DNA of 64,000 nt from Agrobacterium tumefaciens (GTDB taxonomy: Bacteria; Pseudomonadota; Alphaproteobacteria; Rhizobiales; Rhizobiaceae): positions 186,001 to 250,000 of the forward strand of contig CP048486.1 of NCBI GenBank assembly GCA_025560025.1, in the 5' to 3' direction. Each line of letters starts with the position of its first letter. Position 1 is the stretch's first letter. The notes below the pieces were generated by a model, which saw only the letters and a list, made by a program, of their open reading frames with translations, was not told the origin of the DNA and ran no database searches. Shown piece after piece: positions 8,068 through 64,000 of the stretch. The translations under genes and the position numbers were made by a program.

Positions 8068-8997
8068 CTAGAGAAAACCTACCTGCTGCCAGCTTCTGTC
8101 CCCATTTGCGCGGGCAAAGATTCCCGGAGCGACACCGTTTCTTTTGCGGAAAGCGGTACTGAATGCGCTGGCGGATTCGTAGCCGATCTCCTCGGCGATA
8201 TGATCGAGCGACTTTACGCCGCGCATCAGCGCGTCCCTGGCAAGCGCCATCCGCCAGCGCGCTAGATATTCGATCGGCGCGCAACCGAGCACTTCATTAA
8301 ACCGCGCGGCAAAGGCCGAGCGCGACATGCCGGCGATCCCGGCCAGTTCGGCCACGGTCCAGTTCGCGCGGACATTGGCATGCATGGCAGACAAGGCGCG
8401 GGCAAGCCCGGGCAAGCGCATTCCCTTCACCAGCCCCGCCGGAATAGCCTCGCTGCCGGCGCCGGGACGACGCAGCACTTCGATCAAAAGAACCTCCAGC
8501 ATGCGCCGGATGATGAGTTCCTTGCCCGCATCCTCGCTGGCGCATTCCTCTGACAGCAATTCTATGAGGCGCGCCAGCCGGGATGCTCCGCCCTCGCCCG
8601 CCGGCACATGGATCAGCCCGGGAATCAGCGAAAGCAAAAGCGCGGCATTGATCCGCTCGAACATGAAGCTTCCCCCAAGCGCAACGAAATCCGGCTCTCC
8701 CTCCTGTTCACCATGCCGGACCGCCCGGTCTTGCGGCTCCACCGGAATACATTCGACATCGGTATCGCTGCAGAGCGAGAAAGCCGGCGTCGATGGCAGG
8801 AGCAGAAAATCACCGCGCGCCAGCCGCAGGGGGTCGCGGCCCTCGAGCAGAACCCAGGCCGCGCCGGAAAGGACGATTGCAAAACCCGGAGCGTCATAAG
8901 CGCGATAACGCACGCCCCACCGGCCCCGTCCGGAAATCGGCTTGGACACGGCGGCACTCGGGCGCAGAAGATCGATAATATCGCTGAGTGGATCCAT
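8068..8997 (-). CDS. AraC-family transcriptional regulator with cupin domain
   Basis: Regulator of 309 aa. The N-terminal half (YRAYDAPGFAIVLSGAAWVLLEGRDPLRLARGDFLLLPSTP) is an AraC-type cupin_6 sensor, and the C-terminal third carries two helix-turn-helix motifs (NWTVAELAGIAGMSRSAFAARFNEVLG; SLDHIAEEIGYESASAFSTAFRKRNG). The ATG at 8997 starts the recognisable domain; the upstream extension is low-complexity and dropped. It is divergent from a short-chain dehydrogenase across a 93-bp AT-rich gap, an arrangement usual for AraC regulators that control a single SDR/oxidoreductase gene. Confidence 0.9.
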   Translation of the reverse strand: MDPLSDIIDLLRPSAAVSKPISGRGRWGVRYRAYDAPGFAIVLSGAAWVLLEGRDPLRLARGDFLLLPSTPAFSLCSDTDVECIPVEPQDRAVRHGEQEGEPDFVALGGSFMFERINAALLLSLIPGLIHVPAGEGGASRLARLIELLSEECASEDAGKELIIRRMLEVLLIEVLRRPGAGSEAIPAGLVKGMRLPGLARALSAMHANVRANWTVAELAGIAGMSRSAFAARFNEVLGCAPIEYLARWRMALARDALMRGVKSLDHIAEEIGYESASAFSTAFRKRNGVAPGIFARANGDRSWQQVGFL

Positions 8998-39428: not shown

Positions 39429-41642
<2,214 letters not shown>

Positions 41643-41856: not shown

Positions 41857-42798
41857 TCAGGAGGTCGCTTCCGATTTCGGTTCCAGCAACTCACTCGCGG
41901 TTTCGCGAATGGCCTGCATCAACAGCGACAGCGGCAATGACGGCTGGGTATCGGCCCTGACCGTCAGCCCCACCGGCCCGCTGGTATCGCCGGTATCAAC
42001 CGGCAGAATTGCCAGAATGCCGTCTGCCACGTCAGCGGCGATCACGCCTTCCGAAATGATCCAGACGGCATCGCTGGTGCGCAGATACGCCCGGCCGAAG
42101 GCATCCGACACGGTCTCAATACGGATCGGTAGCGCCGGCACGCCATTGGCGATCAGGAACTGTTCGACGATGGGGCCGATCACCGATTGCCGTGTCGGCA
42201 TCAGCACGGGAAACTCGTGAAGCCGGTCGAAAACCGAAACGCCGTTAGACAGCAGCGGATGGCCGGCACGCACCACGAACCGCACTTTTTCTGAATAGAG
42301 ATGCTCGAAGGAGAAGCCCGTCATTTTCTGCGGCGCGGCCAGACGCCCGACAACGAGGTCCAGATCGCCGACCCGCAACTGTTCCAGCAGCACGGCGTTT
42401 TCACCGGTGACGATCTTGACGGGGCTGCCGGTTTTTTCCGCGAGAAACCCCGCCATCGCCTTCGGCATGATCCTGACGGAAACGGTCGGCAATGCGCCGA
42501 CCCGGACGGGAGGGCCGGCGCGTGCGGCCTCCTGCGAGACCGAATCAACCGCCTGCCGCAGCGCCGTCATCGTCGCGCCCGCATGGCGCAGAAACACCTC
42601 GCCATAACGGCTGATGCGGATGCCGCGTCCTTCGCGATCAAACAGCGAGACACCGAGGATTTCCTCCAGTTCGCGGATGGTTTTTGTCACCGCCGGCTGG
42701 CTGACATGCAGGATTTCGGCGGCGCGGATGACACTTTTCTGCCGCGCCACCTCCACGAAGGTCTGAAGATGCCGGAACTTGATGCGTTGATCGACCAT
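41857..42798 (-). CDS. pcaQ: LysR-type activator of protocatechuate genes
   Basis: LysR regulator of 313 aa. N-terminal HTH (LQTFVEVARQKSVIRAAEILHVSQPAVTKTIRELEEILGVSLFDR), substrate-binding domain from about residue 95 (RVGALPTVSVRIMPKAMAGFL). PcaQ proteins respond to beta-carboxy-cis,cis-muconate / its lactone and activate pcaDCHGB. Divergent from pcaD across a 94-bp promoter with a PcaQ-type palindrome. Confidence 0.94.
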   Translation of the reverse strand: MVDQRIKFRHLQTFVEVARQKSVIRAAEILHVSQPAVTKTIRELEEILGVSLFDREGRGIRISRYGEVFLRHAGATMTALRQAVDSVSQEAARAGPPVRVGALPTVSVRIMPKAMAGFLAEKTGSPVKIVTGENAVLLEQLRVGDLDLVVGRLAAPQKMTGFSFEHLYSEKVRFVVRAGHPLLSNGVSVFDRLHEFPVLMPTRQSVIGPIVEQFLIANGVPALPIRIETVSDAFGRAYLRTSDAVWIISEGVIAADVADGILAILPVDTGDTSGPVGLTVRADTQPSLPLSLLMQAIRETASELLEPKSEATS

Positions 42799-42805
42799 CG
42801 CTCAT

Positions 42806-42821
42806 ATAATCCATGGGTTAT
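42806..42821. promoter_or_regulatory. PcaQ box of pcaD promoter
   Basis: ATAATC-CATG-GGTTAT, an inverted repeat matching the ATAACC-N4-GGTTAA PcaQ site known from Sinorhizobium at 10 of 12 defined positions. It is 71 bp upstream of the pcaD ATG and 8 bp from the pcaQ start, suiting both activation and autoregulation. Confidence 0.7.
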
Positions 42822-42892
42822 GATTTTCATCGATAATGTCATTTTACTTAACCGGAACGCGCTTGCAATATCCGCGGCGGGAGGAGCACATC

Positions 42893-43690
42893 ATGCATTT
42901 TCTGCGCTGTGGCGAAAACGCGATCCATTACCGTGCGCACGGATTGGAAAGCGGCAAGCCGGTCATCGCCTTCATCAATTCGCTGGGCACCGACTTCCGC
43001 ATCTGGGATGCGGTGATCGAAGCACTCGGCGATGATTATGCTTTTGTCCTGCACGACAAACGCGGCCACGGGCTTTCCGACATCGGCACCTCCCCCTATT
43101 CAGTTGAGGATCATGCCGATGATCTGATCGCGCTTCTCGATCATCTCGGCGTCAAAAGCGCGATCATCTGGGGATTGTCGGTCGGCGGCCTGATCGCCCA
43201 GGGGCTTTATGCCCGCCGCCCCGATCTCGTCCGCGCCTTGATACTCAGCAACACCGCCCACAAAATCGGCACCGCCGAGATGTGGAATGCGCGCATCGAC
43301 AAGATCGCCGCTGACGGCCTTGCCTCGCTGGTCGATCCAGTCATGGAGCGCTGGTTCACACCCGCCTTCCGTCAGCCGGACAATGCGGCTTATGCGGGCG
43401 CGCGCAACATGCTGTCGCAACAGCCGGAAGCCGGCTACAGCGGCACCTGCGCCGCCATTCGCGATGCGGATTTCACGAAAGAGGCGGGCCTTATCGCGGT
43501 TCCCACATTGTGTGTGGCGGGCGATCAGGACGGTTCGACCCCGCCCGCGCTGGTTCGGTCGCTGGCGGGTCTCATTCCCGCCAGCCGCTTCGTCACCATC
43601 GGCAGCTGTGGCCACATCCCCTGCCTTGAACAGCCGCTCGCCTACACACAGGCGGCCTCAATTTTTCTGAAGACCTTGCCGGAGCACTGA
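42893..43690 (+). CDS. pcaD: 3-oxoadipate enol-lactonase
   Basis: Alpha/beta hydrolase of 265 aa that converts beta-ketoadipate enol-lactone to beta-ketoadipate. Nucleophile elbow GLSVGG, oxyanion region INSLGTDFRIWD and catalytic His near GSCGHIPCLEQP. GGGAGGAG precedes the ATG. First gene of pcaDCHGB under PcaQ; the next gene starts 3 bp later. Confidence 0.95.
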   Translation: MHFLRCGENAIHYRAHGLESGKPVIAFINSLGTDFRIWDAVIEALGDDYAFVLHDKRGHGLSDIGTSPYSVEDHADDLIALLDHLGVKSAIIWGLSVGGLIAQGLYARRPDLVRALILSNTAHKIGTAEMWNARIDKIAADGLASLVDPVMERWFTPAFRQPDNAAYAGARNMLSQQPEAGYSGTCAAIRDADFTKEAGLIAVPTLCVAGDQDGSTPPALVRSLAGLIPASRFVTIGSCGHIPCLEQPLAYTQAASIFLKTLPEH

Positions 43691-43693
43691 CAG

Positions 43694-44128
43694 ATGGCGG
43701 AAAATATCGACAAGAACGACAGATTCGAGCAGGGCATGAAAACGCGCCGCGCTGTGCTCGGCGATGCCCATGTGGACCGCGCGCAGACGGTGACGACCGG
43801 GTTCGACCAGCCTTTTCAGCAGCTCATCACCGAAGCGGCGTGGGGATCGGTCTGGTCCGGCAACCACTGGACGAAGCGCGAGCGTTCGATGGTCACCATC
43901 GCTCTGCTCGCCGCACTCGGGCAGGATGAGGAACTTGCCATGCATGTGCGTGCCACCATCAATACCGGCGCGACAGAGGCGGATATTCGCGAGGCGCTGC
44001 TGCATGTGGCGATCTATGCCGGCGTGCCCGCCGCCAACCACGCTTTCAAGATCGCCAAGCTTGCCCTGGCCAGCATGAAAGCCGATAGTTCCCCCGATAA
44101 TTCTGGCGATGGGGAGGAGACGAAATGA
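43694..44128 (+). CDS. pcaC: 4-carboxymuconolactone decarboxylase
   Basis: AhpD-fold decarboxylase of 144 aa turning gamma-carboxymuconolactone into beta-ketoadipate enol-lactone. The N-terminal [17 protein letters not shown] and AWGSVWS region, then [17 protein letters not shown] and [32 protein letters not shown], are standard. The stop overlaps the pcaH start (ATGA). Confidence 0.95.
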
Positions 44129-44865
44129 GCAACCAGCCACCCGAAACAGGGCCGTTCTTCGCACGCGACCGCAATATCCATCCGCTGCCCTATTCGCCCG
44201 GTTACAAGACCTCGATCCTGCGCTCGCCCCAGCGCGCGCTGATTTCGCTCGAAGGCACCAAAAGCGAGATCACCGGCCCGGTCTTCGGTCATGGCATGCT
44301 GAACCCGCTGGATAACGACCTCATCCTCAACTATGCCCGCCCCGGCGAAATGCCCGTCGGCCCGCGCCTTCTTGTGCATGGCCGGGTGCTGGACGAGCGC
44401 GGCCGCGGTGTGGATGGCGCGCTGGTGGAATTCTGGCAGGCCAATGCCGGCGGGCGCTACCGCCACAAGAAAGAAAGCTATCTTGCCGCCATCGATCCGA
44501 ATTTCGGCGGCGTCGGCCGCACGATCACCGATGAGAACGGTTATTACTGGTTCAAGACCATTCAGCCCGGTGCTTACCCCTGGCCGAACGGCGTCAATGA
44601 CTGGCGCCCGGCCCATATCCATTTCTCGGTCTTCGGCCACGGGTTTGCCCAGCGCCTCATCACCCAGATGTATTTTGAAGGCGATCCGCTGATCTGGAAA
44701 TGTCCGATCGTCAAAACCATACCGGATGAGGATGCGATCAGAAGATTGATCGCGCCGCTGGACATGAATGCGACGCTGCCCATGGACATGCTGGCCTATA
44801 AGTTCGATATCGTTCTGCGTGGCCGCCGCTCGACCCTGTTCGAAAACCGCATGGAGGGCAACTGA
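44125..44865 (+). CDS. pcaH: Protocatechuate 3,4-dioxygenase beta subunit
   Basis: Iron-binding catalytic subunit of 246 aa of the ring-cleaving dioxygenase. Core motif [34 protein letters not shown], then [16 protein letters not shown] and [28 protein letters not shown] supply the Tyr and His ligands. It follows pcaC with a 4-bp overlap and precedes pcaG by two bases. Confidence 0.96.
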
Positions 44866-44867
44866 TC

Positions 44868-45488
44868 ATGGTTCAGCCGCTCAACTACTTCAAAGAAACC
44901 GCCTCGCAGACGGCAGGCCCCTATGTCCATATCGGCTGCACGCCCAATTTCGTCGGCATCGAGGGCGTATTCGAAAAGGATCTCGGATCCGGCGCGCTCT
45001 ATAACGACAAGGCCCGCGGTGAGCGTATCAGCGTGCGCGGCACGGTGTACGACGGCGCAGGCATGCCGCTGAAGGACGCCCTGATCGAAATCTGGCAGGC
45101 GGATACGGACGGTTATTACAACAGCCCGAGCGAGACCCGCGGCAAGGCCGATCCGAATTTCATCGGCTGGGGCCGTTCGCCGGGTGACATGGATACCGGT
45201 GAATTCATCTTCGAAACCATCAAGCCCGGCACCGTGCCGTTCCGGGATGGCCGACCGATGGCGCCGCACATCACCTTCTGGATCGTGGCGCGCGGCATCA
45301 ATATCGGCCTGCAAACCCGCATGTATTTCCCCGAGGAAGAGGCCGCCAATGCGGCCGATCCGGTTCTTGCCCGCGTGGAACAGAAAAGCCGCATCGCCAC
45401 GCTTGTTGCCAGGAAGGAAGAGGGAAACATCTATCGTTTCGATATCCGCCTCCAGGGCGAAGGCGAAACGGTGTTTTTCGATATCTGA
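44868..45488 (+). CDS. pcaG: Protocatechuate 3,4-dioxygenase alpha subunit
   Basis: Structural subunit of 206 aa partnering PcaH. It shares the intradiol fold (VRGTVYDGAGMPLKDALIEIWQADTDGYYNSP) but lacks the full Tyr2-His2 iron set, as expected of the alpha chain. Family N-terminus LNYFKETASQTAGPYVHIG is present. Confidence 0.96.
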   Translation: MVQPLNYFKETASQTAGPYVHIGCTPNFVGIEGVFEKDLGSGALYNDKARGERISVRGTVYDGAGMPLKDALIEIWQADTDGYYNSPSETRGKADPNFIGWGRSPGDMDTGEFIFETIKPGTVPFRDGRPMAPHITFWIVARGINIGLQTRMYFPEEEAANAADPVLARVEQKSRIATLVARKEEGNIYRFDIRLQGEGETVFFDI

Positions 45489-45506
45489 GCGAAAGCGAAA
45501 CCTGAA

Positions 45507-46568
45507 ATGAGCCTTTCCCCCTTCGAACATCCGTTTCTGTCCGGCCTTTTCGGCGACAGCGAGATCGTCGAACTGTTTTCGGCGAAAGCGGATATCGACG
45601 CCATGGTCCGTTTCGAGACGGCACTGGCGCAGGCGGAAGCCGAGGCCGGTATCTTTGCGGATGATGTGGCGGAAGCCATCGTTTCGGGGCTTTCAGAATT
45701 TGCCGCCGATATGACCGCGCTTCGCCATGGCGTCGCAAAGGATGGCGTCGTGGTTCCGGAACTCATCCGGCAGATGCGGGCGGCGGTCGCCGGTCAGGCA
45801 GCGGACAAGGTGCATTTCGGCGCGACCAGCCAGGACGTCATCGACACCAGCCTGATGCTGCGGCTGAAGATGGCGGCGGAAATCATCGCCACCCGCCTCG
45901 GTCATCTCATCGATACGCTGGGTGACCTCGCTTCGCGCGACGGCCACAAGCCGCTGACAGGTTACACACGCATGCAGGCCGCCATCGGTATCACCGTTGC
46001 CGACCGGGCGGCGGGCTGGATCGCACCGCTGGAACGTCATCTGCTGCGGCTAGAGACCTTCGCCCAGAATGGCTTTGCCCTGCAATTTGGCGGCGCGGCC
46101 GGCACGCTGGAAAAGCTCGGCGACAATGCGGGCGCGGTCCGCGCCGATCTCGCAAAACGGCTCGGCCTTGCCGACAGGCCGCAATGGCACAATCAGAGAG
46201 ACGGTATCGCCGAATTTGGCAATCTGCTGTCGCTCGTCACCGGAACGCTCGGCAAGTTCGGTCAGGATATTGCGCTGATGGCCGAACTCGGCAGCGAAAT
46301 CCGCCTCTCCGGCGGCGGCGGTTCATCGGCCATGCCGCACAAGCAGAACCCGGTCAATGCGGAAACGCTGGTAACGCTTGCCCGCTTCAACGCCGTGCAG
46401 ATTTCAGCACTTCACCAGTCCCTCGTCCACGAACAGGAACGATCCGGCGCGGGCTGGATGCTGGAATGGCTGACGCTGCCGCAAATGGTGACCGCAACCG
46501 GAACTTCACTGCTGGTCGCCGAAAGGCTCGCAGCGCAGATAGACAGGCTGGGGGCTGACGAAAGCTAG
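45507..46568 (+). CDS. pcaB: 3-carboxy-cis,cis-muconate cycloisomerase
   Basis: Fumarase/aspartase superfamily enzyme of 353 aa that lactonises beta-carboxymuconate. Motifs: DKVHFGATSQDVIDTSLMLR and the superfamily loop GGGGSSAMPHKQNPVNAE with the catalytic Ser. The length is at the short end of the family (about 350-450), as usual for rhizobial PcaB. Last gene of pcaDCHGB. Confidence 0.94.
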   Translation: MSLSPFEHPFLSGLFGDSEIVELFSAKADIDAMVRFETALAQAEAEAGIFADDVAEAIVSGLSEFAADMTALRHGVAKDGVVVPELIRQMRAAVAGQAADKVHFGATSQDVIDTSLMLRLKMAAEIIATRLGHLIDTLGDLASRDGHKPLTGYTRMQAAIGITVADRAAGWIAPLERHLLRLETFAQNGFALQFGGAAGTLEKLGDNAGAVRADLAKRLGLADRPQWHNQRDGIAEFGNLLSLVTGTLGKFGQDIALMAELGSEIRLSGGGGSSAMPHKQNPVNAETLVTLARFNAVQISALHQSLVHEQERSGAGWMLEWLTLPQMVTATGTSLLVAERLAAQIDRLGADES

Positions 46569-50130: not shown

Positions 50131-51000
50131 ATGACAGAGAAAACCGCCTTCAAGGTCGGCCTCATTGGCGCCGATATCCAGCTTTCGAAATCGCCCGCGC
50201 TGCATATGCGCGAAGGGGCTGCCCATGGCCTCGATTATTCCTATGAGCTGGTGGATGTCACTGCCCGCAAGCTCCCGGCCAGCGCCCTTCCCGTCCTGCT
50301 CGACGAGCTGGAAGCGCGCGGTTTTGCCGGCACCAATATCACCCACCCATTCAAGCAGGCGGTCATTCCGCACCTGCATGAATTGTCGGAAGATGCCCGT
50401 ATGCTGGGCGCGGTCAACACCGTCGTCTTCAAGGACGGTCGCCGCATCGGCCACAATACCGACTGGTACGGTTTTTACGAAAGCTTCGTGCGTGGCTTGC
50501 CGGATGCGAAGCGGGATCGCGCGCTGCTCGTCGGCGCGGGTGGGGCGGGTGTCGCGGTGGCGCATGCCGCGCTGAAGCTCGATATCGCTCGGCTAGACAT
50601 TTTCGACCGCGAGTTCGAAAGGGCGGAGCGACTGGCTCTCGAGCTCAATGCCCGCTTTGGCGCAGGCCGCGCCTTTGCCGTTGAGGACCCGTCCGCCTCC
50701 CTGCCCTTCGCCAACGGTCTCATCCACGCCACCCCGATGGGCATGCCCGCCCATCCCGGCATGCCGGTTTCAGCCGATCTCATCGAACAGCGGCACTGGG
50801 TGGCCGATATCGTCTATATGCCGCTCGTCACCGAACTTCTGGCGACGGCGGCGAAAAAAGGCTGTCGCACCCTGCCCGGCGGCGGCATGACCGTTTTTCA
50901 GGCCGTCGGCGCATTCCGCCTCTTCTGCGGTCGCGAGCCGGATGCGCAGCGCATGACGGCGCATTTCACCGAACTTTGCATGGCGGAGGGTGTGGCATGA
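50131..51000 (+). CDS. Shikimate/quinate dehydrogenase (AroE-like)
   Basis: NAD(P)-dependent dehydrogenase of 289 aa. [19 protein letters not shown] (substrate loop SxSP), [16 protein letters not shown] (catalytic Lys), [23 protein letters not shown] and [14 protein letters not shown] (nucleotide loop) are in AroE order. It lies beside a type II dehydroquinase and a 3-dehydroshikimate dehydratase, and close to pcaHG, so it is probably the catabolic quinate/shikimate dehydrogenase rather than the biosynthetic AroE. The stop overlaps the next start (ATGA). Confidence 0.88.
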
Positions 51001-51440
51001 GCCTTTTCACCATCCTCAATGGCCCGAACCTCAACCTGCTCGGCCAGCGCCAGCCGGAAATCTATGGCTATGAGACCCTGGCCGATATCGAAGCCATTTG
51101 CCGTGGGATAACCGAAGCCGCCGGCCACGAACTGTTCTTTGCCCAGAGCAACCGCGAATATGAGTTGATCGACTGGATTCACGAAGCGCGGGGCAAATCA
51201 TCAGGCATAGCCATCAATCCCGGCGCCTTTACCCACACATCAGTGGCCATCCTCGATGCGCTGAACGCCTTCGAAGCGCCCGTCATCGAGGTTCACATTT
51301 CCAACATCCACAAACGCGAGGTTTTCCGCCACCATTCCTATGTCTCGACCCGCGCCGAAGGCGTAATCGCCGGCCTCGGCATCGAAGGTTATGAGGTGGC
51401 TTTACGCCACCTGATCAACCGTCTTTCCCGATCGTCGTGA
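50997..51440 (+). CDS. aroQ: Type II 3-dehydroquinate dehydratase
   Basis: Enzyme of 147 aa. [19 protein letters not shown] (with catalytic Tyr), [17 protein letters not shown] and [18 protein letters not shown] are diagnostic. It dehydrates 3-dehydroquinate to 3-dehydroshikimate. Coupled by ATGA to the dehydrogenase; in this context it serves quinate catabolism (QuiB/QutE role). Its 3' end overlaps the convergent TetR gene by 26 bp. Confidence 0.93.
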
Positions 51441-52107
51441 TATGGCCGGGCGTCAGCACATAACGCAGCACCATGTCGCTGACATGCCGCGACAGTGTGT
51501 CCTGCCCCTCATCGGTGAACAGATTATCACCGAAGATGAACGAGAAGGTCGCGACATTCGAGACGTTGAAAAAAGACAGCGCGCTGATCTGCCAGTGCAG
51601 TTCCAGCGCATCGATGCCGTTACGGAAGATGCCACGCTTCTGCCCGCGCAGCAGCACGCTTTCCAGCGCGTCGATGGCCGGCCTGTTGAGCTGGCGGATC
51701 GTCTCCGACGATTGCATATGCCGGCCGTGATGGATGTTTTCGATCATCACCATGCGAATGAAGGCCGGGTTGCGACGGTGGTGGTCAAAGGTGAACCGAC
51801 AGAGCTTGTCGAGCGCCGCAGCCGGCTCAAGGTCGTCGAGCTCCAGATTGCTCTCGCCGCCGCGCACCTTGGCATAGGCTTCCTCAAGCACGCGCTGGTA
51901 AAGGCTCTCCTTATCGCTGAAATAATAATAGATCATGCGCTTGGACGTGCGCGTGCGGGCGGCGATTTCATCGATGCGGGCGCCGGAAAGGCCGTTCTGC
52001 GAAAACTCTTCCATGGCCACCGAAAGAATGTCGCGGCGAACCCCCTCCGGATCGCGCTTCGCCTGCCGGCTGTCTCGGGTTCCGTTCGAAGTCGCGCTTT
52101 TGGTCAT
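51415..52107 (-). CDS. TetR-family regulator of the quinate/shikimate cluster
   Basis: Repressor of 230 aa (from the ATG at 52107). N-terminal HTH: REGV-like start then [55 protein letters not shown]. The C-terminal domain is of the kind found in TetR regulators of aromatic degradation genes. It is divergent from the dehydratase gene, with an inverted repeat in the 86-bp gap. Effector is probably quinate, shikimate or dehydroshikimate (inferred). Confidence 0.88.
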
Positions 52108-52149
52108 GATCCATTCCATCGGTGGGGCGGCTGGCCTGTCGCCACGCCC

Positions 52150-52166
52150 TGATTATTAACCAATCA
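52150..52166. promoter_or_regulatory. Inverted repeat in TetR / dehydratase promoter
   Basis: TGATT-ATTAACC-AATCA, 5-bp arms with 7-bp spacer, in the divergent gap. It overlaps AACCAATCAGTACA (52158-52171), the sequence similar to one in the ABC-operon promoter. Candidate TetR operator. Confidence 0.4.
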
Positions 52167-52193
52167 GTACATAAGGCTGAAAAGGAAGGCAAT

Positions 52194-54131
52194 ATGGCGA
52201 GCTATGACACAGGCAGACACAGCATGCCAATGCGCACATCCATTGCAACCGTATCGATCAGCGGCGAATTTCCCGAAAAACTGGCCGCCATCGCCAAGGC
52301 CGGTTTTACCGGCGTGGAAATTTTCGAAAACGATTTCCTGACCTATGACGCCTCCCCGCGCGAGGTAAAGGCTTTGGTGGCCGATCACGGGCTGGACATT
52401 ACCCTGTTCCAGCCATTCCGCGATTTTGAAGGCATGCCGGAACCGCACCGGGCCCGCACCTTCGAGAGAGCACAGCGCAAGTTCGATATCATGGGCGAAC
52501 TCGGCACCGATCTGATGCTGATCTGCTCCAATGTCTCGCCGGTCTCGCTCGGCGGCATCGACCGCGCCGCCGCCGATTTCCATCAGCTCGGTGAACTGGC
52601 CGCAAAACATGGTGTGCGCGTCGGTTACGAGGCGCTGGCCTGGGGCCGCCATATCAGCGATCACCGCGATGCCTGGGAGGTGGTGCGCCGCGCCGACCAC
52701 GCCAATGTCGGCATCATTCTCGACAGTTTCCACACGCTGTCTCGCAAGATCGACCCCAATTCGATCCGCTCCATTCCCGGCGACAAGATCTTCATCGTGC
52801 AGCTGGCCGATGCGCCGCTGATCGACATGGACCTGCTTTACTGGAGCCGCCATTTCCGCAACATGCCGGGCGAAGGCGATCTGCCTGTCGTGGATTTCAT
52901 GCGCGCCGTGGCTGCAACCGGTTATAACGGCCCGCTGTCGCTCGAAATCTTCAACGACCAGTTCCGCGGCGGCTCGGCCCGCCTGCTTGCCGAAGATGGC
53001 CACCGTTCGCTGGTCAACCTCATGGATCAGGTACGCCGCCTCGAGCCGGATATCCGCATCGATGTGCCCGCCATGCCCGAACGGGTCGAGACGCAAGGCG
53101 TGGAATTCGTCGAATTCACCACTGCACCCGAAGAAAAGGCAAATCTGGAAGCGCTGCTCGCCACGCTCGGCTTTGAAAAAACCGCAAGGCATCGCAACCG
53201 TGACGTTGATCTCCATACGCAGGGCGATATCCGTATCGTCATCAATACCGGTGGCACCGGCGACAGTTTCGCCGGCGCGTCCTATTCCATCCACGGCACC
53301 AATGCCTATGCTTTCGGACTCAAGGTCGCGGACGCGCAGGCTGCCCTTGCCCGTGCGGAAGCGCTCGGTGCACCAACCTTTGCCGAGCCGCGCCGATCGG
53401 GCGAGGTCGCCGTCCCCGCCATTCAGGGTGTGGGCAATGGCGTTATCTATTTCCTCGACGGCTCCCCGGCACTCGCTTCCATCTGGGACAATGAATTTGT
53501 GCCGGCAGAAGGTCAGACCGGGAAAGGCGACGCTCATCTCACCCGTATCGATCATCTTGCGCAAACAACGCATTACGATGAAATGCTGACCTGGCTTCTG
53601 TTTTACACGTCGCTGTTTTCCTCCCGCCGCACGCCGATGGTCGATGTGGTCGATCCCGGCGGGCTGGTGCGCAGCCAGGCGATTGAAAGCGTGCCTTCAC
53701 CGCATTTTCGCCTGACCATGAACGGCGCGGACAATCGCAAGACTTTCGCCGGCAAATTTTTGGCCGAAGGTTTTGGCACCAGCATCCAGCATATCGCCTT
53801 TGCTACAAGCGATATCTTCGCCACCGCAGGAGCGTTGCGGGCCCGGGGGTTTCAGGCACTGCCCATCTCACGCAATTATTACGACGACCTCGAGGCGCGC
53901 TTCGGGCTGGAGCCGGAATTTTCCGATGCGCTGCGGGCGGCAAGCATTCTCTACGACCGCGACGACAACGGCGAATATTTCCAGATATACAGCCGCACCT
54001 TTGGCGAAGGTTTCTTCTTCGAAATCATCGAGAGACGTGGGGCCTATGGCGGTTATGGCGCCATGAATGCGCCCTTCCGCATCGCCGCGCAAAGGCGCCT
54101 TGCGCCTCCGGTCGGCATGCCGCGGGAATAG
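52194..54131 (+). CDS. quiC1: 3-dehydroshikimate dehydratase, fusion with HPPD-like domain
   Basis: Two-domain protein of 645 aa. The N-terminal TIM barrel (about 10-290) has metal ligands E146 (GYEALAWG), D177 (ILDSFHT), Q203 (IVQLADAP) and E251 (LSLEIFND), as in bacterial dehydroshikimate dehydratases. The C-terminal part (about 310-630) is a vicinal-oxygen-chelate fold like 4-hydroxyphenylpyruvate dioxygenase, with RIDHLAQ, IQHIAFAT and FFFEIIER supplying His, His and Glu. The fusion is known for QuiC1-type enzymes, where the first domain makes protocatechuate. The start at 52194 has AAGGAAGG upstream. Product feeds pcaHG. Confidence 0.9.
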   Translation: MASYDTGRHSMPMRTSIATVSISGEFPEKLAAIAKAGFTGVEIFENDFLTYDASPREVKALVADHGLDITLFQPFRDFEGMPEPHRARTFERAQRKFDIMGELGTDLMLICSNVSPVSLGGIDRAAADFHQLGELAAKHGVRVGYEALAWGRHISDHRDAWEVVRRADHANVGIILDSFHTLSRKIDPNSIRSIPGDKIFIVQLADAPLIDMDLLYWSRHFRNMPGEGDLPVVDFMRAVAATGYNGPLSLEIFNDQFRGGSARLLAEDGHRSLVNLMDQVRRLEPDIRIDVPAMPERVETQGVEFVEFTTAPEEKANLEALLATLGFEKTARHRNRDVDLHTQGDIRIVINTGGTGDSFAGASYSIHGTNAYAFGLKVADAQAALARAEALGAPTFAEPRRSGEVAVPAIQGVGNGVIYFLDGSPALASIWDNEFVPAEGQTGKGDAHLTRIDHLAQTTHYDEMLTWLLFYTSLFSSRRTPMVDVVDPGGLVRSQAIESVPSPHFRLTMNGADNRKTFAGKFLAEGFGTSIQHIAFATSDIFATAGALRARGFQALPISRNYYDDLEARFGLEPEFSDALRAASILYDRDDNGEYFQIYSRTFGEGFFFEIIERRGAYGGYGAMNAPFRIAAQRRLAPPVGMPRE

Positions 54132-54801: not shown

Positions 54802-54939
54802 ATGCGCATCATCGATTCCGAAACCGATGCCAGGCATTTTGCCGGCACCGACGGGGTTGTTTTAAAGGCCTGCAGAGGATCGCGATATCTGCATCTGCCG
54901 GCAGCAACCGATGCGCATTGCGCGCTCAAGGCGGCGTAA
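54802..54939 (+). CDS. Doubtful small open frame, 45 codons
   Basis: Starts MRIIDSETDARHFAG and ends in CALKAA; it has only a weak GGGG 10 bp before the ATG, no recognised homology, and lies in the leader of the dipeptide ABC operon. It may be a leader peptide or chance. Listed so it can be tested. Confidence 0.15.
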   Translation: MRIIDSETDARHFAGTDGVVLKACRGSRYLHLPAATDAHCALKAA

Positions 54940-55078
54940 GACGTCATGCGCCTCTCTGCGACATTCCCGTTCTCTGGCGCAACGCCGCAGACCGCCCCCT
55001 TATCCCCCGCACTTCGCACTTCCCAATTTCAGATGGCAGCGCCGGAAATTCCGCGCATGCCAAGCCGGAGACGCTGAT

Positions 55079-56899
<1,821 letters not shown>

Positions 56900-56940
56900 A
56901 TAACAACCAGACCCACAACCATCTGAAGAGGAACAGGTAG

Positions 56941-58476
56941 ATGACAATGATCAAGAAGGGGATGACGACAACGTTCGTCGCACTTGCCATGGCCGCCACG
57001 GCCTTTACCGCCGCACCGGCTCTCGCCGCCGGCAAGATGACCATTTCCAGCCCGCAGGATCCGGGCAGCTGGGATCCGATCGACACCTTCCTCGTGCAAT
57101 GGGCTGCCGTCGCCACCAACATCTTCGATGGCCTGACCTATCGCGGCCCGGACCTGAAGGTTGTGCCCGGCCTTGCCGAATCCTGGGAAGAGCTGGATGA
57201 GGGCAAGCGTATCCGCTTCAAGCTGCGCCAGAACGTCAAGTTCCACAATGGCGAGCCCTTCAACGCCGCCGCCGTCAAGTTCACCTTCGAGCGCCTTCTC
57301 GGCGAACAGGGTGCCAAGGGCCCGCAGCGCTCCAACTATGTCGCCATCGAAAGCGTCGATGTCATCGACGATTACACGGTCGACATGAAGCTGAAGGCGC
57401 CGGATCCCGTGCTGCTGACCAAGCTTGCCGGTTATGGCGGCATGATCGTTCCGCCTGCCTACATCAAGGAAAAGGGCGAGGACAATTTCAACCTCAACCC
57501 CGTCGGCACCGGCGCGTTCAAATTCGTTTCCTACGCACCAAAGACCAACATCAAGCTGGAAGCCAACCCCGATTACTGGGGCGGTGCGCCAAAGCTTTCC
57601 GAGCTTGAATATCGCTTCATCGCCGAGCCCGCGACCGCCGTTGCCGAATTGCAGGCCGGCCGCGTCGATCTCGTCATTCCGCCCACCATCCCGATCGGCA
57701 TGATCCCGGTCATCGAAGGCGATTCCAAGCTTGAGATCGTCAGCGTGCCCGGCCCGACGGTCGATGCGCTGCGTTTCAACACCCGTGACGGCATCACCGC
57801 CGATCCGAAGGTGCGCAAGGCGATCATCATGGCCGTCGACCGCGGCACCATCGTCAAGTCGATCCTTGCCGGTCAGGCATCCGAAATCGCGAGCTTCCAG
57901 AGCGCGCTGTCCTTCGGTTACGATCCGGAACTGAAGCCCCTGCCTTACGATCCGGAAGGTGCGAAAAAGCTGCTCGCGGAAGCCGGCGTCAAGCCGGGTG
58001 CGACGCTGCAGATCGATATCCGCGGCAATGATGCGACGATGAACGAGGTGGCGCAGGTTATTTCCAGCTACCTCTCCATGGTCGGCATCACCGCCACTAT
58101 CAAGCCTTACGAAACCAACGTTCTGCTGAACGATATCATCCCGCAGGGCAAGACCGGCGCGATGTTCCAGCAGAAATGGGGCGGCTGGACCTTCGATTAC
58201 GACAATACGGCCTATTCCATGTATCACTCGGGTGAAAAGTGGAACCCTTACGACAAGGACGAAAAGCTGGACAAGCTGCTTGAATCCCAGCGTCCGCTGA
58301 CCGACCGTGCCGAGCGCGAAAAGATCCTCAAGGAAATCGGCAGCTATACCGCCGAACGCGCGCTGGAAATTCCGCTTTACAACAGCAATGCCATTTACGG
58401 CATCAACAAGCGGGTCAAGGGTTTCGTCGCACCGCCGGATAACCGCCTGAAGCTGACCGACGTGACCGTCGAATAA
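56941..58476 (+). CDS. Family 5 peptide-type substrate-binding protein (DppA/OppA-like)
   Basis: Periplasmic binding protein of 511 aa, signal peptide ending near PALAAG. MTISSPQDPGSWDPIDTFLVQWAAVATNIFDGLTY and PGLAESWEELDEGKRIRFKLRQNVKFHNGEPFNAAAVKFTFERLL are SBP_bac_5 hallmarks. GAGG precedes the ATG. Ligand is probably a peptide or peptide-like compound, given the downstream peptidase; glutathione or opine-type ligands are alternatives. Confidence 0.92.
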   Translation: MTMIKKGMTTTFVALAMAATAFTAAPALAAGKMTISSPQDPGSWDPIDTFLVQWAAVATNIFDGLTYRGPDLKVVPGLAESWEELDEGKRIRFKLRQNVKFHNGEPFNAAAVKFTFERLLGEQGAKGPQRSNYVAIESVDVIDDYTVDMKLKAPDPVLLTKLAGYGGMIVPPAYIKEKGEDNFNLNPVGTGAFKFVSYAPKTNIKLEANPDYWGGAPKLSELEYRFIAEPATAVAELQAGRVDLVIPPTIPIGMIPVIEGDSKLEIVSVPGPTVDALRFNTRDGITADPKVRKAIIMAVDRGTIVKSILAGQASEIASFQSALSFGYDPELKPLPYDPEGAKKLLAEAGVKPGATLQIDIRGNDATMNEVAQVISSYLSMVGITATIKPYETNVLLNDIIPQGKTGAMFQQKWGGWTFDYDNTAYSMYHSGEKWNPYDKDEKLDKLLESQRPLTDRAEREKILKEIGSYTAERALEIPLYNSNAIYGINKRVKGFVAPPDNRLKLTDVTVE

Positions 58477-58498
58477 GCGGGTTAATCCTGTGAACACG

Positions 58499-58529
58499 CC
58501 GCCTTGTCCGCCTCTCGCGGGCAAGGCGG
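58499..58529. terminator. Intercistronic hairpin after DppA-like gene
   Basis: Thirteen-bp GC stem with one G-U pair and a CTCTC loop, then a T-rich stretch (ATTTCTCTT), between the binding-protein stop and permease start. Likely partial terminator or 3' protector. Confidence 0.6.
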
Positions 58530-58566
58530 GATTTCTCTTCCCAGTTTTTTCTTCAAGGTAAAAAAC

Positions 58567-59490
58567 GTGGCCGGTTTCCTCATCAAGCGATTGTTGCAGG
58601 CGATTTTTGTCGTCATCGCCATCACTCTTCTCGTTTCCTTCGCCATTCGCCTCACCGGCGATCCGGCTGTCACCATGTTCCAGGGCGGCGGCAGCATGAC
58701 GGAAGACGATCTGGCGCGCATCCGCGCGGCGCTGGGCACTGACCGGCCGTTCTTCGTGCAATATTTCAGCTTCCTGAAGGGCCTCGTGACGCTCGATTTC
58801 GGCCGCAGCTTCACCGGTAGCACGCCGGTCTCGCGCCTCATCGCCGATGCCCTGCCCGCCACGCTGCTGCTCGCCTTCATCTCCATGGCGGTGTCGATTG
58901 CGCTCTCCATCCCGCTCGGCATCAAGGCGGCGACCTCGCGCGGCAAGACGGCCGATCAGGTGATCCGCATCTTTTCGCTCGTCGGCCTATCCTTCCCGAA
59001 TTTCTGGCTGGCCACGATGCTGGTGCTCTTATTCTCCATCACGCTCGGCTGGCTGCCGCCAAGCGGCATGGGTGGTTTCGCCAGCTACATCATGCCCGCT
59101 GTCACCATGGGCGTCATCCTCACCGCCACCAATGTCCGCCTCGTGCGCACCGCCATGCTCGATACGCTGCGCTCGCAATACATCATGGTGGCGCGCGCCA
59201 AGGGCCTCAGCGAAAACAAGGTTCTCTACAAACACGCGCTGCGCAACTGCGCCATTCCGCTCATCACCTATTTCGGCCTGCAATTCGGCGGGCTGCTCGG
59301 CGGCATCGTCGTCATCGAACGTGTCTTCAACTGGCCGGGCCTCGGCACGCTGGCTTTCGATGCGGTCGGCGCGCGCGATTATCCCGTGCTTCAGGCCGTC
59401 ATCACCGTGCTGTCGCTGATGATCGTCGGCATCAACCTTCTGGTCGATATCGCCTATGGGCTTGTCGATCCGCGCATTCGCACGGAGTAA
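58567..59490 (+). CDS. Dipeptide-type ABC transporter permease (DppB-like)
   Basis: Inner-membrane permease of 307 aa. The GTG at 58567 with AAGG 8 bp upstream gives the standard N-terminus VAGFLIKRLLQAIFVVIAITLLVSF; a longer TTG-started frame would begin inside the hairpin. Coupling region: DTLRSQYIMVARAKGLSENKVLYKHALRN. Confidence 0.9.
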   Translation: MAGFLIKRLLQAIFVVIAITLLVSFAIRLTGDPAVTMFQGGGSMTEDDLARIRAALGTDRPFFVQYFSFLKGLVTLDFGRSFTGSTPVSRLIADALPATLLLAFISMAVSIALSIPLGIKAATSRGKTADQVIRIFSLVGLSFPNFWLATMLVLLFSITLGWLPPSGMGGFASYIMPAVTMGVILTATNVRLVRTAMLDTLRSQYIMVARAKGLSENKVLYKHALRNCAIPLITYFGLQFGGLLGGIVVIERVFNWPGLGTLAFDAVGARDYPVLQAVITVLSLMIVGINLLVDIAYGLVDPRIRTE

Positions 59491-59496
59491 GTGACG

Positions 59497-60345
59497 ATGG
59501 CTGCAAAAACCTCGCGTCTCGCGCGCTTCACCAATCTCGAATTCATCCTCGGCGCGTTCCTCACCACGGTCATCTGCCTCGCCGTCGTCTTTTCCGACGT
59601 GCTGTTTCCGGGCGGAGCGGACAAGATCGACCTGATGGCGCGCCTTGCCAAGCCCTTTGCCAATGCCGCCCATCCGCTCGGCACCGATCCGCTGGGGCGT
59701 GACGTGCTCGCCCGCGTCGTCGCCGGCGGCAAGATTTCGCTGCTGGTCGGTTTCACCTCGGTCATCGGCGCGGTCATCTTCGGCGTCGCGGTTGGTCTGG
59801 TGGCCGGTTATTATCGCGGCTTCTGGGATATGCTGGTCATGCGCTTTGCGGATATCCAGCTCGCCATGCCCTTCATTCTGCTCGCCATCACCTTCATCGC
59901 CATTGTCGGCGGCAGCCTCACCAACACCATCATCCTCCTGATCGTCTCGCAATGGGTGCAATATGCCCGTCTCGTGCGCGGCTCGGTGCTGACGCTGCGA
60001 GAGCGGGAGTTCATCCTTTCCGCCCGCGCCATCGGCGTGAAGGACTGGCGCATCATTCTCCAGCACCTGCTGCCGAACCTCATCGGCCCGGTCATCGTGC
60101 TGATGACGCTCAATGTCGCCAACAACATCCTCTTGGAAAGCAGCCTCACCTTCCTCGGCCTCGGCGTCGATCCGACCATTCCGAGCTGGGGCGGCATGCT
60201 GGCGGATGGACGGACCTATTTGCAGACGGCATGGTGGGTCAGCGTCTTCCCGGGCCTTGCCATCCTTCTGACGGTGCTTGGCCTCAACCTTCTCGGCGAC
60301 TGGCTGCGTGACAGCCTCGACCCCACCGGCAGAACTTCGAGGTAA
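59497..60345 (+). CDS. Dipeptide-type ABC transporter permease (DppC-like)
   Basis: Inner-membrane permease of 282 aa. HPLGTDPLGRDVLARVVAGGKISLLVGF is the DppC/OppC entry motif; coupling region is REREFILSARAIGVKDWRIILQHLLPN. GGAG lies 9 bp before the ATG at 59497; a GTG at 59491 immediately follows the DppB stop and is less likely. Confidence 0.92.
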   Translation: MAAKTSRLARFTNLEFILGAFLTTVICLAVVFSDVLFPGGADKIDLMARLAKPFANAAHPLGTDPLGRDVLARVVAGGKISLLVGFTSVIGAVIFGVAVGLVAGYYRGFWDMLVMRFADIQLAMPFILLAITFIAIVGGSLTNTIILLIVSQWVQYARLVRGSVLTLREREFILSARAIGVKDWRIILQHLLPNLIGPVIVLMTLNVANNILLESSLTFLGLGVDPTIPSWGGMLADGRTYLQTAWWVSVFPGLAILLTVLGLNLLGDWLRDSLDPTGRTSR

Positions 60346-60350
60346 ATGCG

Positions 60351-62084
60351 ATGAGCCAGATTTTCGACCAGACTTTCGAACGCACGCTGGATGCGCTTCT
60401 CGCCAATGCCGAGCCCGGCCAATCTTTCGAGGCATGGAGCTTCGATGATGCCAAAAGCCGCCGCGAAGCCGAAAACCGGCTGAAGAAAAAAGGCGTCAGC
60501 GCCCGCATCCGCAGCGCCTACAAGCCGCTTCTCTTCACCTTTCTGGAAGAGATCAATCTGGATGGCGTCGACACCATCGAGGTGCGTTACCCGGTGCATG
60601 CCAACGCACCCGCCAATCGTTTCCGGCTGGAGGCCTATCCGCTGGCCGCGCTGGTGGGCGATGCGAAGATCGACTTCGTCGCCCGAAAAGACGACGCCTT
60701 CCATTATGATGTTACCCTGAGTCGCAACGGCAAGAAGGAAACCCTGAAGATTCTGGCGCCAAACCGGGTGCACACCGATATCGTCGGCGAAACCAATGTT
60801 TCACCCACGGGCTGGTTCCGGTTTGCCGGCGACGCTTTAGGCGAGCGGCTGGAGACGGACTACGAACGGCTTTTCGAAGCGGCGATTCATGCCTTCGCTA
60901 ACCACGGCTGGGGCGATGAAGAGCCCTATTTCGAGGAACTGAACATCCGCGTCGCGCATCCGGCCGAAGATCTGCCGCTCTCCCTTGGCGATGAGGTCGT
61001 CAGCCTGCGCGAAGCCCTGCATGAGGATTTCTATTTCTCGCTGCTGGAGTTCTTCCAGAAAAAGTCGGGCCGGCCGCTGGGCGACCGGGGCCTGAAGCCC
61101 GGCCAGATCGTGCCGGAAATCGTGAAAAGCGAAGGTGAAGTCTCCGTGCGCATCGAGGCCCGCACGCTCACCACCGCCTTTCTCGATGGCCGTGAACAGC
61201 AGATCGATACGGCCAGCGAACCGGTTGCGGCAGGCCAGCTCGCGAAACTGCTTGAAGAAATCGGCGGCGAGGCCTTCGAGGCCCGCTCCCGTTCCGGCCG
61301 TATTCTTGCCGCCCGTTATGTCGCCGGCAGCGATGCCGCAGTGATGATCAGCGGCGGCCAGCACCCCAACGAGACCACAGGCATCGTCGGCGCCATCCGT
61401 GCCGCCCGTAAACTTGCCGAGCGCAGGGGCGCACATTTCACCATTTCGCCGCTGGAAAATCCTGACGGTTACGCCCTTCATCAACGGCTGAGAGCCGACA
61501 ATCCGCGCCACATGCATCACGCGGCGCGTTACACGGCGCTCGGCGACGATCTCGAATATCGCACGCGGGAAAATTCGGGTGTCCATCTCAACGAGAAGGC
61601 AATCCGTTTCAGGGCGCAGGAGATGAGCGGCGCGAGCCTGCATGTGAACCTGCACGGTTATCCATCCCATGAATGGACCCGGCCGCTTTCCGGCTATGTA
61701 CCGCGCAATTTTGCCATGTGGACGCTGCCGAAGGGTTTCTTCCTCATCATCCGCCACCATGCGGACTGGGAAAGGCAGGCCGAAGCCCTGCTCGACCGGG
61801 TGACCCGCCATCTCGGCGCGATTCCCGGCCTGCTCGATTACAACAACCGACAGATCGCTCTTTATGAAATCCACGCCGGCGAAACCGGTTTCCGCATCAT
61901 CAACGGTTTCCCGTGCCTGTCCTCCGTCGACGACCGCCACACCGTGCCGATGACGCTGATCACCGAATATCCTGATGAGACGATCTACGGCAACGACTTC
62001 ATCACCGGTCACACCGCGCAGATGGAAACGGTTCTCTCCGCCTATGATGCCTGGCAGAAGATTCTCGTCGGGGAAGTCGCCTGA
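60351..62084 (+). CDS. M14-family zinc carboxypeptidase-like protein with unknown N-terminal half
   Basis: Cytoplasmic protein of 577 aa without signal peptide. The C-terminal half holds the M14 zinc pattern: H338 and E341 in GGQHPNETTG, PLENPDGY, and the third ligand in SLHVNLHGYPSHEW (about 431-435). A distal Glu lies in HAGETGF or LITEYPDET. The first ~310 residues do not match a domain I recognise. It starts 5 bp after the DppC-like gene, so it belongs to the operon and probably hydrolyses the imported peptide or amide. A terminator follows. Confidence 0.8.
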   Translation: MSQIFDQTFERTLDALLANAEPGQSFEAWSFDDAKSRREAENRLKKKGVSARIRSAYKPLLFTFLEEINLDGVDTIEVRYPVHANAPANRFRLEAYPLAALVGDAKIDFVARKDDAFHYDVTLSRNGKKETLKILAPNRVHTDIVGETNVSPTGWFRFAGDALGERLETDYERLFEAAIHAFANHGWGDEEPYFEELNIRVAHPAEDLPLSLGDEVVSLREALHEDFYFSLLEFFQKKSGRPLGDRGLKPGQIVPEIVKSEGEVSVRIEARTLTTAFLDGREQQIDTASEPVAAGQLAKLLEEIGGEAFEARSRSGRILAARYVAGSDAAVMISGGQHPNETTGIVGAIRAARKLAERRGAHFTISPLENPDGYALHQRLRADNPRHMHHAARYTALGDDLEYRTRENSGVHLNEKAIRFRAQEMSGASLHVNLHGYPSHEWTRPLSGYVPRNFAMWTLPKGFFLIIRHHADWERQAEALLDRVTRHLGAIPGLLDYNNRQIALYEIHAGETGFRIINGFPCLSSVDDRHTVPMTLITEYPDETIYGNDFITGHTAQMETVLSAYDAWQKILVGEVA

Positions 62085-62483: not shown

Positions 62484-62859
62484 CAGACACCAAATAAAGT
62501 TCACAATATGCTTCGCGAGGCTACAAACAATCCCCTTAGAACTGGTTAAGGCACGAGGCTTGCGCGGGTATGACCGTCATTTTCGAAACATGCACAAAAG
62601 CTGGTTTTCATGACGAAGCATTTCGATACCATGTGCCGCGAAAACACCGGTCGTGATGGCTGCGGCGGCGCTATATAGTGAGAATCACGGGATGATCACT
62701 ATTGTGCGATCTCGCATGAGACAAACCCTGTAAGACGGGTATTGATAACCGTCAGGTTATTTATCATCCCCCTTATTTCATTTTACTTTGGCCACCGCAC
62801 TCATCAATCTGGCAGCCTGGATCGGTGGATGGGAGCCACGGATCAATTGGGAGGAATTC
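62484..62859. other. 376-bp divergent promoter region at right edge
   Basis: AT-richer than its surroundings. It contains a PcaQ-type palindrome (62745-62760) and a good ribosome site (GGGAGGA) before the binding-protein ATG. No convincing gene. Confidence 0.6.
62745..62760. promoter_or_regulatory. Predicted PcaQ box of an ABC importer promoter
   Basis: ATAACC-GTCA-GGTTAT, a perfect 6+4+6 palindrome 99 bp before the ATG. It matches the ATAACC-N4-GGTTAA PcaQ consensus at 11 of 12 defined positions and the pcaD-promoter site (42806-42821) at 11 of 12. Positioned as expected for LysR activation. Confidence 0.6.
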
Positions 62860-64000
62860 ATGAAATTACGGATCACCGCCGCCATCGCGGCCATCTGCTT
62901 CAGTACTGCCGCTTATGCCGAGACCATCAAGGTCGGCGTGGTCGGTCCGTTCTCCGGCCCCTTCGCGCTGCAGGGCAAGAACTTCAAGGCCGGCATCGAT
63001 GCCTGGTTCGCCCTGCATGGAAACAAGGTCGGCGATGACACGGTCGAAGTCGTCTATCGCGATGTGCCGCAGGCCGATCCGGCGCAGTCCAAGGCGCTGG
63101 CGCAGGAGCTGGTGGTGAAGGAAGGCGTGCAATATCTCGCCGGCTTCTATTTCACCCCGGATGCGATGGCCGTCACGCCTTTGCTGAAGCAGGGCAACGT
63201 GCCGATGGTCATCATGAATGCCGCCACTTCGGCCATCGTGACCAAGAGCCCGTATGTGGTGCGCACCTCGTTCACCACCTGGCAGACCTCCACCCCCATC
63301 GCCAAGGTGGCCTTTGATGGCGGCGTGAAGAAGGTCATCTCGCTGGTCAGCGATTATGGCCCGGGCGTCGATGCCGAGAACGCCTTTAAGGCGGCCTTTA
63401 CCGCCGCCGGCGGCGAGGTTGTCGAAAGCATCCGCATGCCGCTTTCCACCAATGATTTCAGCCCGATCATGCAGCGCGTGAAGGATTCCGGCGCGCAAGG
63501 CGTCTTCGCCTTCCTGCCGTCGGGCCCGACCACGCTCGGTTTCGTCAAGGCCTTCAACGATAACGGCCTGAAATCCGCAGGCGTCAAGCTCTTCGCGCCG
63601 GGCGATCTGACGCAGGAATCCGACCTGCCGGCGCTTGGCGAAGCCGCGCTCGGCATGCAGACGACCTTCCACTACGCCGTCTCGCATGATTCCCCCGAGA
63701 ACAAGACCTTCGTGGAAGCCGCCGCCAAGGCCATCGGCAATCCGAAGGAGCTCTCCTTCCCTTCCGTCGGCGCCTTTGACGGCATGTATGTCATCAGCAA
63801 GATGATCGAAGCCACCGGCGGCAAACAGGATGCGGAAAAGGCGGTGGACGCGGTGAAGGGTCTTTCCTGGACAAGCCCGCGCGGCCCTGTCAGCATCGAT
63901 CCGGAAAGCCGCCACATCACGCAGAACATCTATCTGCGCGAAGTGGCCAAGGGCGATGACGGCAATTATTACAACAAGGAAGTCCAGACCTTTGAAAAAC
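62860..64000 (+). CDS. Branched-chain-type ABC substrate-binding protein, 3' end outside window
   Basis: Periplasmic binding protein, 380 codons visible, open to the window end. Signal peptide MKLRITAAIAAICFSTAAYA, then ETIKVGVVGPFSGPFALQGKNFKAGIDAWFAL, the Leu/Ile/Val-type (family 4) signature; ASxA-like NAATSAIV and SDYGPGVDAENAFKAAF follow. GGGAGGA precedes the ATG. This family also binds aromatic acids, and the PcaQ-type box upstream suggests protocatechuate or a related benzoate as ligand. Permease and ATPase genes would be expected just beyond the edge. Confidence 0.88.
   Translation, partial: MKLRITAAIAAICFSTAAYAETIKVGVVGPFSGPFALQGKNFKAGIDAWFALHGNKVGDDTVEVVYRDVPQADPAQSKALAQELVVKEGVQYLAGFYFTPDAMAVTPLLKQGNVPMVIMNAATSAIVTKSPYVVRTSFTTWQTSTPIAKVAFDGGVKKVISLVSDYGPGVDAENAFKAAFTAAGGEVVESIRMPLSTNDFSPIMQRVKDSGAQGVFAFLPSGPTTLGFVKAFNDNGLKSAGVKLFAPGDLTQESDLPALGEAALGMQTTFHYAVSHDSPENKTFVEAAAKAIGNPKELSFPSVGAFDGMYVISKMIEATGGKQDAEKAVDAVKGLSWTSPRGPVSIDPESRHITQNIYLREVAKGDDGNYYNKEVQTFEK

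Follow-up and report, generated by a model that had tools for sequence, protein, structure and literature searches.

Does the promoter at the right edge of a 64,000-nucleotide stretch of Agrobacterium tumefaciens DNA (G000:C2:186001-250000, hereafter the window, from a 5.68-Mb genome in four contigs) place an ATP-binding cassette (ABC) importer under PcaQ, the LysR-type regulator encoded beside pcaD in the same window? A sequence-only reading had proposed such a link between a distant importer and the protocatechuate regulon, from a perfect palindrome in front of the binding-protein gene and a similar one at the pcaQ-pcaD promoter. Both palindromes are present, and the sequence bears the link out: in all likelihood, the gene at the right edge is the pcaM of a protocatechuate importer of the pcaMNVWX type, and its promoter is the genome's second PcaQ target beside pcaDCHGB. 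The LivHMGF-like genes that the reading had anticipated beyond position 64000 were found in L027, a stretch fetched past the window edge (window position = L027 position + 58999). The features concerned are as follows.

62745..62760, + strand: predicted primary PcaQ box, palindrome ATAACC-GTCA-GGTTAT (ATAACCGTCAGGTTAT), recognized from its sequence
62778..62786, + strand: second conserved element TCATTTTAC, including a predicted -35 box TTTTAC (62781-62786)
62805..62810, + strand: predicted -10 box CAATCT of the importer promoter, picked out by eye
62850..62854, + strand: ribosome-binding site GGAGG, conserved in aligned near-clade promoters
62860..64000, continuing to 64032 (L027:3861-5033), + strand: pcaM-like gene for a predicted periplasmic hydroxybenzoate/protocatechuate-binding protein of 390 amino acids
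L027:5122-8452, downstream of the pcaM-like gene and co-oriented with it: two permeases (BPD_transp_2) and two ABC ATPases
41857..42798, - strand: pcaQ, LysR-type regulator (TIGR02424, 459.6 against a cut-off of 303.8 bits)
42806..42821, + strand: PcaQ box ATAATC-CATG-GGTTAT (ATAATCCATGGGTTAT), between pcaQ and pcaD
42839..42847, + strand: second element TCATTTTAC at pcaD, with a predicted -35 box TTTTAC (42842-42847) of putative promoter function
42866-42871, + strand: predicted -10 box CAATAT of the putative pcaD promoter
42893..43690, + strand: pcaD (TIGR02427, 370.4 against 255.85)

The two boxes lie 19.9 kb apart, that of the importer 99 bp 5' of the binding-protein ATG (62860). Each is followed after exactly 17 nt by TCATTTTAC, an addition to the earlier reading, which described the palindromes alone. 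This second element overlaps the predicted -35 box, and by eye 18 nt separate TTTTAC from the -10-like hexamer (CAATCT or CAATAT) at both promoters. At pcaD, the ATG at 42893 was preferred because the open reading frame (ORF) start at 42836 would put the second element inside the gene. Judged from these hexamers, importer transcription is predicted to start near 62817; with a start 7 nt past the -10-like hexamer, the box would be centred at about -64.5 at both promoters, and the primary site of a LysR-type activator usually sits about there. The high-affinity site of OccR, for one, is placed at -64 in an excerpt of PMC5002191. A consensus promoter scan did not return the predicted importer -35 and -10 boxes among its matches. 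The element at 62778..62786 probably contains the PcaQ activation site.

How specific are these sequences? Searching the window for ATAAYC-N4-GGTTAW yielded two sites, and allowing one mismatch gave four strand matches, against a mean of 0.19 and a maximum of 2 in shuffled sequences. A scoring matrix built from 22 pcaQ-pcaD rows, among them L112, which is out of register, scored the two sites 45.0 and 8.3 and found no third site in the window; the next scores were -19.6, which is the importer box on the opposite strand, and -21.0. Genome-wide, the simple box recovered both sites and was not fully specific, with a third exact site on contig C1. At up to one mismatch it gave 38 strand matches against 20 for the reversed control, about a twofold excess. 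Because the reversed control yields about half as many matches, we dropped the simple box as a genome-wide regulon search and replaced it with a composite (ATAAY, 28 nt, TCATTTTAC; that is, the box, 17 nt and TCATTTTAC). This composite occurs twice in the genome as an exact copy, not at all at one mismatch and 15 times at two mismatches; the reversed composite occurs 16 times at up to two mismatches. Across our genus sample of 39 genomes, 56 exact copies stand against none for the reversed pattern: 32 lie within 14 bp of a pcaQ match (31 genomes, one of which has two), and the other 24 lie 114-133 bp 5' of an importer match. The composite is a sharper rule than the palindrome alone for locating PcaQ targets. 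The third exact box (L028:8481-8496), which lacks TCATTTTAC and has integrase-like and phage-like ORFs nearby, was set aside. It is a perfect palindrome (ATAACCTTTGGGTTAT) in surroundings that look like a prophage by eye only, and may be a phage operator or a chance occurrence.

The two-part promoter is conserved. Thirty of the 39 genus genomes carry the importer at 84% identity or more, and the exact composite stands 5' of it in 24; one more has a form that the exact pattern misses, and two have one extra spacer base. Two of the 30 loci (L155 and L162) escaped the motif used to find starts, and their sites are visible in the composite scan. The remaining three importers lack the composite, and the frame upstream ends like PobA by eye. 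Among these genomes, G002 and G018 have a boxless importer behind such a frame and no exact composite; the PcaQ matches of G002, G018 and G010 each count one TGA inside, which in the first two is perhaps just the terminal stop.

For a wider view, we assembled 81 loci, namely the best 80 of 299 named contigs encoding a relative, plus Sinorhizobium meliloti pSymB. A relaxed composite, which tolerates weaker variants as well (for example TTTATTAT in L051, L056, L104 and L113) and whose counts are independent of the matrix, was sought up to 300 bp 5' of the importer gene. It is present in 66 of the 81 loci, with a gap of 28 nt in 63 and 29 nt in three, and at all 22 pcaQ-pcaD promoters within the same loci; L046, scored as boxless, carries at the same spacing a variant that differs by one letter. 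These importer and pcaD promoters account for 66 and 22 of the 91 matches in 3.1 million strand-bases; two further matches come from reading these promoters on the opposite strand, which leaves one elsewhere. The strict box is found in only 9 of 80 relatives, which we had taken as evidence against conservation until the 22 pcaQ-pcaD promoters overturned it. That count misleads because the real box is looser, and its spacing to TCATTTTAC is the near-constant part. In ten aligned near-clade promoters, mean column identity is 100% in TCATTTTAC, 95% in the box and 83.5% in the spacer; the flanking sequence averages 62% on the upstream and 86.5% on the downstream side.

In tblastn comparisons, the binding protein shows a rounded identity of 100% to its counterparts in Agrobacterium genomosp. 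13 CFBP 6927 and in A. leguminum MOPV5, and one of 87%, over residues 21-390, to that of S. meliloti 1021 pSymB (85% in the alignment). Its nearest solved relative is RPA0985 (PDB 4evs), with 4-hydroxybenzoate bound, at 63% identity over 367 residues. The S. meliloti pcaMNVWX genes are described, in an excerpt of PMC4495286, as PcaQ-regulated and acting in protocatechuate transport, in agreement with the earlier reading. The Sinorhizobium site that it cited is there too: the pSymB orthologue promoter holds, at the homologous place, the PcaQ site quoted for pcaMNVWX in an excerpt of PMC5002191. We equate this locus with SMb20568 from that site and PMC4495286, the pSymB record having no gene annotation at this place. 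The same excerpt of PMC5002191 places the site 65.5 bp before the 'structural gene' in the pcaQ-pcaMNVWX intergenic region; on pSymB it lies 141 bp 5' of the coding start that we deduced, with pcaQ 11.6 kb away, and we therefore read 65.5 bp as the distance to the transcription start. Given the shared boxes, the exclusiveness of the composite, the 85-87% identity to S. meliloti and a solved relative that holds 4-hydroxybenzoate, the Agrobacterium locus is very probably orthologous to the protocatechuate importer already known to be under PcaQ control. A short DNA stretch at G000:C3:305991-306103 (L002, L034), which matches the 3' part of the gene at 72% identity, is perhaps a paralogue on another replicon.

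From these patterns we infer PcaQ binding and induction. PcaQ would occupy the palindrome at about -65 and, when a ring-cleavage intermediate is present as co-inducer, would extend over the second element at -35 and recruit RNA polymerase. Levels of the importer would then increase along with those of the ring-cleavage enzymes in a positive loop, in which trace entry of protocatechuate and its cleavage by PcaHG would supply inducer and hence more import.

Several observations weigh against this reading. Nine of the 39 genus genomes lack a close importer (six have no match at E <= 1e-100, three have relatives of 46-48%), and since eight of the nine keep a PcaQ match (E <= 1e-60), the importer is not indispensable. 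Nor is PcaQ control universal, because 15 of the 81 wider relatives, all behind pobA, lack the relaxed composite at the importer. The second elements of the importer and pcaD agree over 11 bases (TCATTTTACTT) and then diverge (TGGCC versus AACCG), so that PcaQ may act differently at the importer promoter. In Rhizobium leguminosarum, the orthologous set RL3906-RL3910 is also induced by 4-hydroxybenzoate, according to an excerpt of PMC4495286, and a tripartite ATP-independent periplasmic (TRAP) system is named as the protocatechuate importer in an excerpt of PMC3333776.

The induction by 4-hydroxybenzoate also favors the strongest alternative, a PcaQ-controlled importer whose main cargo is 4-hydroxybenzoate or hydroxybenzoates more widely, with protocatechuate as one of several ligands. 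Three of the four nearest solved relatives carry such ligands in their titles (4evs, 4-hydroxybenzoate; 4eyg, vanillic acid; 4ey3, p-hydroxybenzoic acid), the fourth being 4f06, and the importer gene follows pobA, whose enzyme converts 4-hydroxybenzoate to protocatechuate, in 36 of the 81 loci. Against it, an excerpt of PMC4495286 presents the S. meliloti orthologue as a system for protocatechuate, and PcaQ responds to two intermediates of the protocatechuate pathway in the part of PMC12288460 consulted. We consider this alternative plausible and less likely than not to hold as stated; the cargo probably includes 4-hydroxybenzoate as well as protocatechuate.

A second alternative extends the effect of PcaQ downstream. 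The last importer gene is followed after 274 bp by rpiR and then an iolC-D-E-B set (the name iolD is backed by an NCBIfam check), and activation might read through into rpiR-iolCDEB, coupling aromatic to inositol use. Consistent with this, rpiR-iolC lies downstream in the same direction in nine of the 81 loci, which form one tree group with one further row, and a simple scan called no + strand terminator-like site between the importer and rpiR. The gap, however, holds a long inverted repeat by eye (L027 ~8500-8600), the iol set begins with a regulator gene, the close relative L036 has a longer gap, and the fetched flank of another close relative, L037, yielded no iol gene; read-through is improbable. 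The repeat itself (L027:8500-8600, window-equivalent ~67500-67600) may be a mobile intergenic repeat or a terminator.

A box for a different LysR-type regulator, or a palindrome arisen by chance, in either case before an ordinary branched-chain amino acid importer, is very improbable, given an exclusive and conserved composite, a single PcaQ match in the genome (E <= 1e-60), 13-22% identity to the listed leucine/valine-binding proteins versus 63% to RPA0985, and scores far below the LivK (NF011933, 66.4 versus 477 bits) and UrtA (TIGR03407, 82.6 versus 492.75 bits) cut-offs.

For the PcaQ-controlled protocatechuate importer, the 81 loci offer a natural series of one importer in differing genomic arrangements. 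It stands behind pobA in 36 (21 with the box, 15 without), behind pcaB in 19, with rpiR-iol downstream in nine and in other arrangements in 17, and all loci of the last three classes have the box. In the gene tree, the iol-adjacent rows and one row without iol in its flank form one group (SH-aLRT, the Shimodaira-Hasegawa-like approximate likelihood ratio test, 99), whose sister is a pcaB-adjacent group (SH-aLRT 85). Only pobA-linked rows lack the box, and their distribution takes at least two changes on well-supported branches, in a quick tree in which 21 of 78 inner branches are weak and gain and loss of the box look alike. A boxless importer 68-136 bp behind a pobA match was seen in L049, L050, L052, L061-L065, L075, L083, L086, L098, L099 and L105, where control has possibly passed from PcaQ to the pobA transcript. 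More broadly, the odds look about even that the two-part operator-promoter is a portable module, kept as the importer moved behind pcaB, behind pobA or beside iol, and missing in some pobA-linked lineages where pobA-transcript control replaced PcaQ. If so, one and the same transporter would have swapped inducers, a ring-cleavage product versus 4-hydroxybenzoate.

The surrounding genes qualify the word 'distant' in the earlier reading. The rest of the pca region comprises:

40353..41642, + strand: pobA ORF (TIGR02360, 693.4 against 538.7)
43694..46568, + strand: pcaC, pcaH, pcaG and pcaB, ORFs that all exceed their NCBIfam cut-offs

Since the TIGR02360 match sets in only at residue 40 of the ORF, translation of pobA probably starts further downstream; the name pobR is based on position and on similarity to HpaA below cut-off (114.9 versus 274.65). 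The spacing of the boxes stands, and the importer lies 16 kb past pcaB. Because QuiC-like, shikimate-dehydrogenase-like and ABC genes fill that gap, however, the importer is better seen as part of one supra-operonic aromatic region. QuiC-type 3-dehydroshikimate dehydratases produce protocatechuate. The QuiC-like gene (52122-54128) has a C-terminal 4HPPD-like part and scores 636.8 bits, under the equivalog cut-off of 1200; its neighbours are a shikimate-dehydrogenase-like gene at 50131-50997 and, on the - strand at 51415-52119, a divergent TetR-type gene. The QuiC-like and shikimate-dehydrogenase-like genes could form a hydroaromatic branch that feeds protocatechuate; no PcaQ composite of its own was found for the branch. 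Two other ABC systems lie between pcaB and the importer, one with an SBP_bac_3 binding protein and one of peptide type. The latter consists of an ATPase fusion, an SBP_bac_5 protein and two permeases; together with the 577-amino-acid protein that comes next, whose zinc carboxypeptidase match is below threshold (20.1 versus 21.6 bits), it occupies 54911-62084.

Our findings name a likely entry route for protocatechuate, an aromatic acid of plant origin, in the soil bacterium Agrobacterium. The A. fabrum pca cluster is described, in an excerpt of PMC12288460, as lacking pcaK, its nearest PcaK relative not being induced by 4-hydroxybenzaldehyde, and neither 'ABC' nor 'transporter' turned up as a word in the main text of a 2025 A. 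tumefaciens pob paper (PMC12285266). The arrangement, already known from related rhizobia, is mostly ordinary and well supported; modestly new are the two-part signature, the two targets in the genome, the importer's location next to iol and, in some lineages, the absence of the box behind pobA.

Among known systems, the locus most resembles PcaQ/pcaMNVWX of S. meliloti (SMb20568-SMb20784), with an orthologous binding protein (85-87%) followed by permease and ATPase relatives, a two-part promoter with TCATTTT at the same spacing and pcaQ in the same region. The palindrome is perfect in Agrobacterium and imperfect in S. meliloti, pcaQ lies 20 kb away rather than ~11.6 kb, and the rpiR-iol set after the Agrobacterium importer is not shared by S. 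meliloti. R. leguminosarum RL3906-RL3910 likewise has a pcaM orthologue, a predicted PcaQ site and induction by protocatechuate, but unlike the Agrobacterium genes it follows a pobA-type gene and is located apart from the pca genes, as described in an excerpt of PMC4495286. The closest solved binding proteins are those of Rhodopseudomonas palustris, RPA0985 and RPB_2270 (PDB 4evs and 4f06), at 63% over 367 residues.
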